DNA of 35,874 bases from a bacterium (lineage in GTDB: Bacteria; Patescibacteriota; Patescibacteriia; UBA1558; S5-K13). The position numbers and the translations under genes are program-made. The notes under the pieces are model-generated. The model searched no databases. It was not told where the DNA came from and saw only the letters and a list, made by a program, of their open reading frames with translations. Shown here in pieces: positions 7,985 through 8,281 of the stretch. Numbering within the stretch: the first letter of the stretch is position 1; each line of letters opens with the position of its first letter. The stretch covers positions 1-35,874 of the forward strand of contig JAKPTO010000008.1 of NCBI GenBank assembly GCA_029555085.1. The letters run 5' to 3'.

Positions 7985-8061
7985 TGGTGGGCATAGATGG
8001 ACTTGAACCATCGACCCCCACTTTATAAGAGTGGTGCTCTAACCGTCTGAGCTATATGCCC
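7985..8061 (-). tRNA. tRNA-Ile, anticodon UAU
   Basis: Full cloverleaf on the minus strand: acceptor GGGCATA/TATGCCC, D stem GCTC/GAGC, anticodon stem CCACT/AGTGG around CTTATAA, T arm GATGG/CCATC with TTCAAGT, discriminator A and encoded CCA. The loop positions give anticodon U34-A35-U36, which reads AUA. Most bacteria read AUA with a CAU-anticodon tRNA modified to lysidine by TilS; a genomically encoded UAU is uncommon. The body (GGGC...GCCC, A73) is otherwise a normal tRNA-Ile. Confidence 0.9.
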
Positions 8062-8108: not shown

Positions 8109-8185
8109 TGGTGGGCATATCTGAAATTAAACCAAAGACCTCTACAATGTCAATTCTGTTATATAACAGGATAAACTCCACGCCA
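8109..8185 (-). pseudogene. Degenerate tRNA relic between two intact tRNAs
   Basis: The minus strand keeps a 3' end TATGCCC-ACCA identical to the tRNA-Ile acceptor and an anticodon-like TTGACAT as in tRNA-Val, at the same 38-base offset from the CCA as in the intact tRNA-Val. The T stem no longer pairs, and the 5' half (D arm and acceptor strand) is unrecognisable. It looks like a decayed third tRNA in this cluster. Confidence 0.6.
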
Positions 8186-8204: not shown

Positions 8205-8281
8205 TGGTGGGTCCAAGAGGAATCGAACCTCTGACCTTTACGATGTCAACGTAACGCTCTAACCAACTGAGCTATGAACCC
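8205..8281 (-). tRNA. tRNA-Val, anticodon GAC
   Basis: Minus-strand cloverleaf: acceptor GGGTTCA/TGGACCC (one G-U pair), D stem GCTC/GAGC, anticodon stem TTACG/CGTAA around TTGACAT (anticodon GAC), T arm AGAGG/CCTCT with TTCGATT, and encoded ACCA. Reads GUC/GUU. Confidence 0.95.

Follow-up and report, generated by a model that had tools for sequence, protein, structure and literature searches.

The locus described here raises the question of how a bacterium can translate the isoleucine codon AUA with a tRNA whose anticodon is encoded directly as UAU. AUA is usually decoded in bacteria by tRNA-Ile2(CAU) together with the lysidine synthetase TilS. A first-pass annotation of the window (the whole 35,874-nucleotide stretch analyzed, contig C37 of its genome) had placed a UAU tRNA-Ile with the loop CTTATAA at positions 7985-8061. 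It predicted the loss of both TilS and tRNA-Ile(CAU), which, if found in the same genome, would make the UAU tRNA redundant. It also expected some mechanism that keeps U34 from misreading AUG.

We confirmed that 7985-8061 is an intact tRNA-Ile with an Ile-like body and a UAU anticodon. ARAGORN calls a tRNA-Ile(tat) at exactly these coordinates and assigns it to the minus strand (8061 to 7985), the annotation having given no strand. The gene matches Rfam RF00005 at 74.4 bits (gathering score 29) with positions 1-71 all aligned. Its sequence, GGGCATATAGCTCAGACGGTTAGAGCACCACTCTTATAAAGTGGGGGTCGATGGTTCAAGTCCATCTATGCCCACCA, has all four stems paired and an encoded CCA. The loop CTTATAA occupies 8023-8029 and the anticodon (U34, A35, U36) 8025-8027, minus strand, opposite ATA on the plus strand. 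In another genome of the same genus (G001), 73 of the 77 bases are identical, including the UAU, and a nearly identical tRNA is found on contigs of Patescibacteria MAGs. The gene also has a conserved neighbor, a tRNA-Val(GAC) called by ARAGORN at 8205-8281 on the minus strand; the same pair is adjacent in G001, at one further locus (L079) and at three loci in genomes of family f26. Identity with G001, together with a neighbor shared by G001 and distant members of the phylum, argues against a chance match.

Between the two tRNA genes lies a decayed tRNA-like remnant (8109-8153, minus strand), in which an anticodon arm resembling that of tRNA-Val(GAC), TTGACATTGTAGAGGTC, runs into an Ile-type acceptor end, ATATGCCCACCA. 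Aligned to the tRNA-Ile, the remnant scores 38, versus 33 for the best of 300 shuffles.

The genome (1.02 Mb in 53 contigs, 99.4% complete) makes heavy demands on AUA decoding. As the annotation had stated, the codon is frequent: the 31 genes of the window contain 512 AUA in 10257 codons (50 per 1000), or 43% of isoleucine codons (512/1184). Something must therefore read AUA, and our searches turned up no candidate but the UAU tRNA. A search with the TilS model TIGR02432 gave no match at all in this genome and a positive result in 14 of 14 control genomes. The genome-wide tRNA search identified 36 tRNA genes, with only three weak matches more at a looser threshold. Only two of the tRNA loci have a CAU anticodon according to ARAGORN, and they lie side by side on one contig (C5). 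One is the initiator tRNA-Met, with unpaired C1-U72 and an A11-U24 pair. The other is an elongator tRNA-Met with G2-C71 and C3-G70, and it has neither C4-G69 nor C5-G68, which we take to be the determinants that TilS reads; the typing as Met follows the generally accepted identity elements. With both CAU tRNAs typed in this way, the genome has no Ile-type CAU tRNA, and both of the predicted losses are thus borne out.

The same search found a CGN-box arginine tRNA with a genomic GCG anticodon (C41:23908-23979), the usual bacterial one being ACG; TadA, the deaminase acting on A34, may thus be dispensable.

One objection is that TilS and a tRNA-Ile2(CAU) are in fact present and were missed in the draft assembly, leaving the UAU tRNA redundant. 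The assembly is indeed fragmented into its 53 contigs, and tRNAs do go missing from it: neither Ile-GAU, Phe nor Pro tRNAs were found, even at the looser threshold. These three are, however, exactly the tRNA genes that in two genomes of the same family (G002 and G003) stand one after another, as Ile-GAU, Phe and Pro, behind the 16S rRNA gene, so the gap is probably the rRNA operon of this genome left unassembled. Moreover, in the 35 genomes tested from the order (this one and 34 others), no TilS score reaches the cut-off. A single pattern covering GAU, UAU and CAU elongator-type tRNAs found the UAU tRNA in 26 of the 35, several of the genomes without a match being less than 90% complete. CAU tRNAs other than the initiator never exceeded one distinct kind per genome. 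The annotation had proposed a comparison with sister genomes, and in it the trait is seen not to be confined to this genome. Given also that no genome sampled from the phylum has both TilS and a strict-pattern UAU tRNA, we regard redundancy as very improbable.

Two other explanations were weighed, and we rate each of them as slightly more improbable still. An enzyme other than TilS might modify an Ile-type CAU tRNA, leaving the UAU tRNA a minor species, as the archaeal TiaS does in principle; but neither this genome nor the order offers an Ile-type CAU tRNA to be modified, which already refutes the idea here barring an extra CAU tRNA in a gap of the assembly. Equally, the UAU tRNA could be the sole isoleucine tRNA, superwobbling over AUU, AUC and AUA, given that Ile-GAU is absent both from the assembled genome and from the pattern matches in G001. 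Against this, Ile-GAU is found in 20 of the 35 genomes of the order, with G002 and G003 among them. We retain the reading in which the UAU tRNA replaces TilS and tRNA-Ile2(CAU) for the decoding of AUA.

We then considered 287 genomes from across the phylum. The strict pattern, which requires A38, found UAU tRNAs in 90 genomes and TilS scored above the cut-off in 75, with no overlap (Fisher p = 3e-15, an optimistic value because the genomes are related); the exclusion covers this strict A38 pattern only. TilS scores are bimodal, with about 124 bits or more above the cut-off and at most 54 in the remaining genomes. By these strict patterns, 122 genomes lacked both at first. A pattern built on the 5' half of the tRNA then found UAU tRNAs in 22 of 80 near-complete genomes with neither, with the loops CTTATAC (19), CTTATAT (1) and CTTATAA (2); the two CTTATAA cases had been missed because the 3' half of the gene did not fit the first pattern. 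The 19 genomes in which C replaces A at position 38 are all TilS-less. A UAU tRNA is thus found in at least 112 of the 287 genomes, and about 100 have neither TilS nor a UAU tRNA detectable by the patterns used, in part because these patterns miss variant tRNAs (roughly one in four of the 80 genomes gave no match even for the elongator tRNA-Met).

Group I introns were considered as the cause of the 122 genomes with neither and rejected, since many of the missing UAU tRNAs merely have C38, which the first patterns excluded. As a separate observation, introns are common in the tRNA genes of genomes with neither TilS nor a UAU tRNA, and at fifteen loci we noted candidate group I introns that interrupt the anticodon loop, in tRNA genes called Asn, Thr, Phe and Met.

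The swap of TilS for a UAU tRNA is common across Patescibacteria. Within a single family (f25), one genus (g138, two genomes) is without TilS and has the UAU tRNA, and the twelve other sampled genomes have TilS. On a gene tree of the isoleucyl-tRNA synthetase (IleRS), the UAU/TilS label requires at least five changes, which suggests, and being a gene tree made by a quick method does not prove, that switching has occurred repeatedly in the phylum.

Divergent TilS proteins scoring below the cut-off in relatives were also considered. The PP-loop matches that we fetched read by inspection as MnmA (three loci), GuaA (three) or TtcA-like (one), and this candidate explanation was rejected. The one exception is a degenerate TilS-like protein of 400 aa (G129, C18:4800-7600; 50.7 bits) with SGRSDS in place of SGGxDS. 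The family of this genome has no proper TilS in the sample, and the protein may be what is left of a decaying TilS.

A UAU tRNA also has to be charged, and the annotation had suggested inspecting the IleRS for adaptations. The IleRS of this genome (959 aa, at L158:1096-3975 on the minus strand) scores 749 bits against 8c8u (IleRS2 type, 1032 aa) and 723 against the eukaryote-type 8wnd; with the type 1 structure 1ffy the score is 323. The E. coli IleRS gives the reverse order. The sequence of the enzyme from this genome includes the HYPFE motif and no C-terminal Cys4 peptide, and each of these traits marks eukaryote-like IleRS (PMC4861432). Judged by these features, the enzyme is a eukaryote-like (type 2) IleRS without the bacterial C-terminal zinc peptide. 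The Cys4 peptide is likewise absent from all 38 of the phylum IleRS sequences examined, which come from TilS-bearing, UAU and unassigned genomes. In the IleRS alignment, none of the columns that reach 75% consensus or more in each of the two groups distinguishes UAU from TilS lineages, and the idea of a marker residue was rejected.

In two genomes, G003 and G119 (2 contigs, 100% complete), the IleRS model TIGR00392 gave no match above the Leu/ValRS cousins, whereas 37 of 40 genomes score above the cut-off. The miss may be due to an intron, to a gap or to an IleRS of unusual form.

Eukaryotic IleRS copes with its own UAU tRNA. The simplest inference would be that a type 2 IleRS tolerates U34, so that the switch was permitted. 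It is an evenly balanced question, in our judgment, whether TilS and tRNA-Ile2(CAU) were replaced by the UAU tRNA several times across Patescibacteria because a eukaryote-like IleRS, common to TilS-bearing and TilS-less members, eases the swap. If this is true, AUA decoding would be evolutionarily labile, and IleRS type would be a permissive condition in bacteria generally.

Taken together, we consider the following explanation very likely as a whole. The UAU gene would supply the only AUA-reading tRNA found in the genome, its genomic U34 pairing directly with the A of AUA in a lineage from which the usual pair of tRNA-Ile2(CAU) and TilS is absent. The tRNA is predicted to be charged by the genome's own type 2 IleRS lacking the C-terminal zinc peptide. 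U34 can in principle pair with G. AUG would presumably be kept for methionine because tRNA-Met(CAU) outcompetes the UAU tRNA, because U34 and G pair weakly on the ribosome, or for both reasons.

Descriptions of TilS generally present it as essential and as close to universal among bacteria. An entire order of Patescibacteria, together with a considerable fraction of the phylum, lives without it, which makes the exchange of C34-lysidine for U34 a repeated natural experiment. The swap allows a test of which features of IleRS or the ribosome let U34 read AUA and not AUG. TilS-independent AUA decoding is known biology; its scale in Patescibacteria is not something that we found described, our searches of open-access papers having yielded no account of TilS or AUA decoding in Patescibacteria/CPR.

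Among the known systems, that of Mycoplasma mobile is, to our knowledge, the only one with a worked-out IleRS adaptation. The M. mobile enzyme reportedly carries Arg865 at the position that corresponds to Trp905 of the E. coli enzyme, which lies in the CPRCW of the C-terminal zinc peptide. This solution cannot apply here because it acts in a peptide that is absent from our IleRS: a solution of the M. mobile kind would call for a type 1 IleRS with Arg at the Trp905 position, whereas ours is type 2 and has no zinc peptide with CPRCW. The two systems are otherwise alike in replacing TilS and tRNA-Ile2(CAU) by a genomically encoded UAU tRNA-Ile. M. mobile decodes AUA without TilS through a tRNA-Ile2(UAU) that needs IleRS changes (Taniguchi et al., 2013, as summarized in PMC4014445), its U34 being unmodified and AUA being preferred on its own ribosome (PMC4014445). 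The annotation was too narrow in limiting UAU tRNAs to a few such lineages. UAU stands in for Ile2(CAU) in 17-19 bacterial genomes or species plus two archaea (PMC8450103, PMC4013482), including Bifidobacterium, Neorickettsia and several Mycoplasma (PMC8450103, PMC4014445, PMC4013482). The substitution of UAU for CAU is the same in those cases, but they belong to other phyla, whereas here it extends to much of the Patescibacteria, which the cited passages leave unmentioned. The archaea, Nanoarchaeum equitans and Korarchaeum cryptofilum, are described as having a tRNA-Ile3(UAU) in place of Ile2(CAU) (PMC8450103). The enzyme dispensed with in these archaea would be TiaS and not TilS. A further parallel is the work of Fabret and colleagues from 2011, which PMC8450103 cites. 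There, a tRNA-Ile1 carrying U34 instead of G34 reportedly rescued a tilS deletion in Bacillus subtilis. It shows that a bacterium can dispense with TilS once it has a UAU tRNA; unlike that laboratory suppressor, the Patescibacteria present a naturally evolved state.
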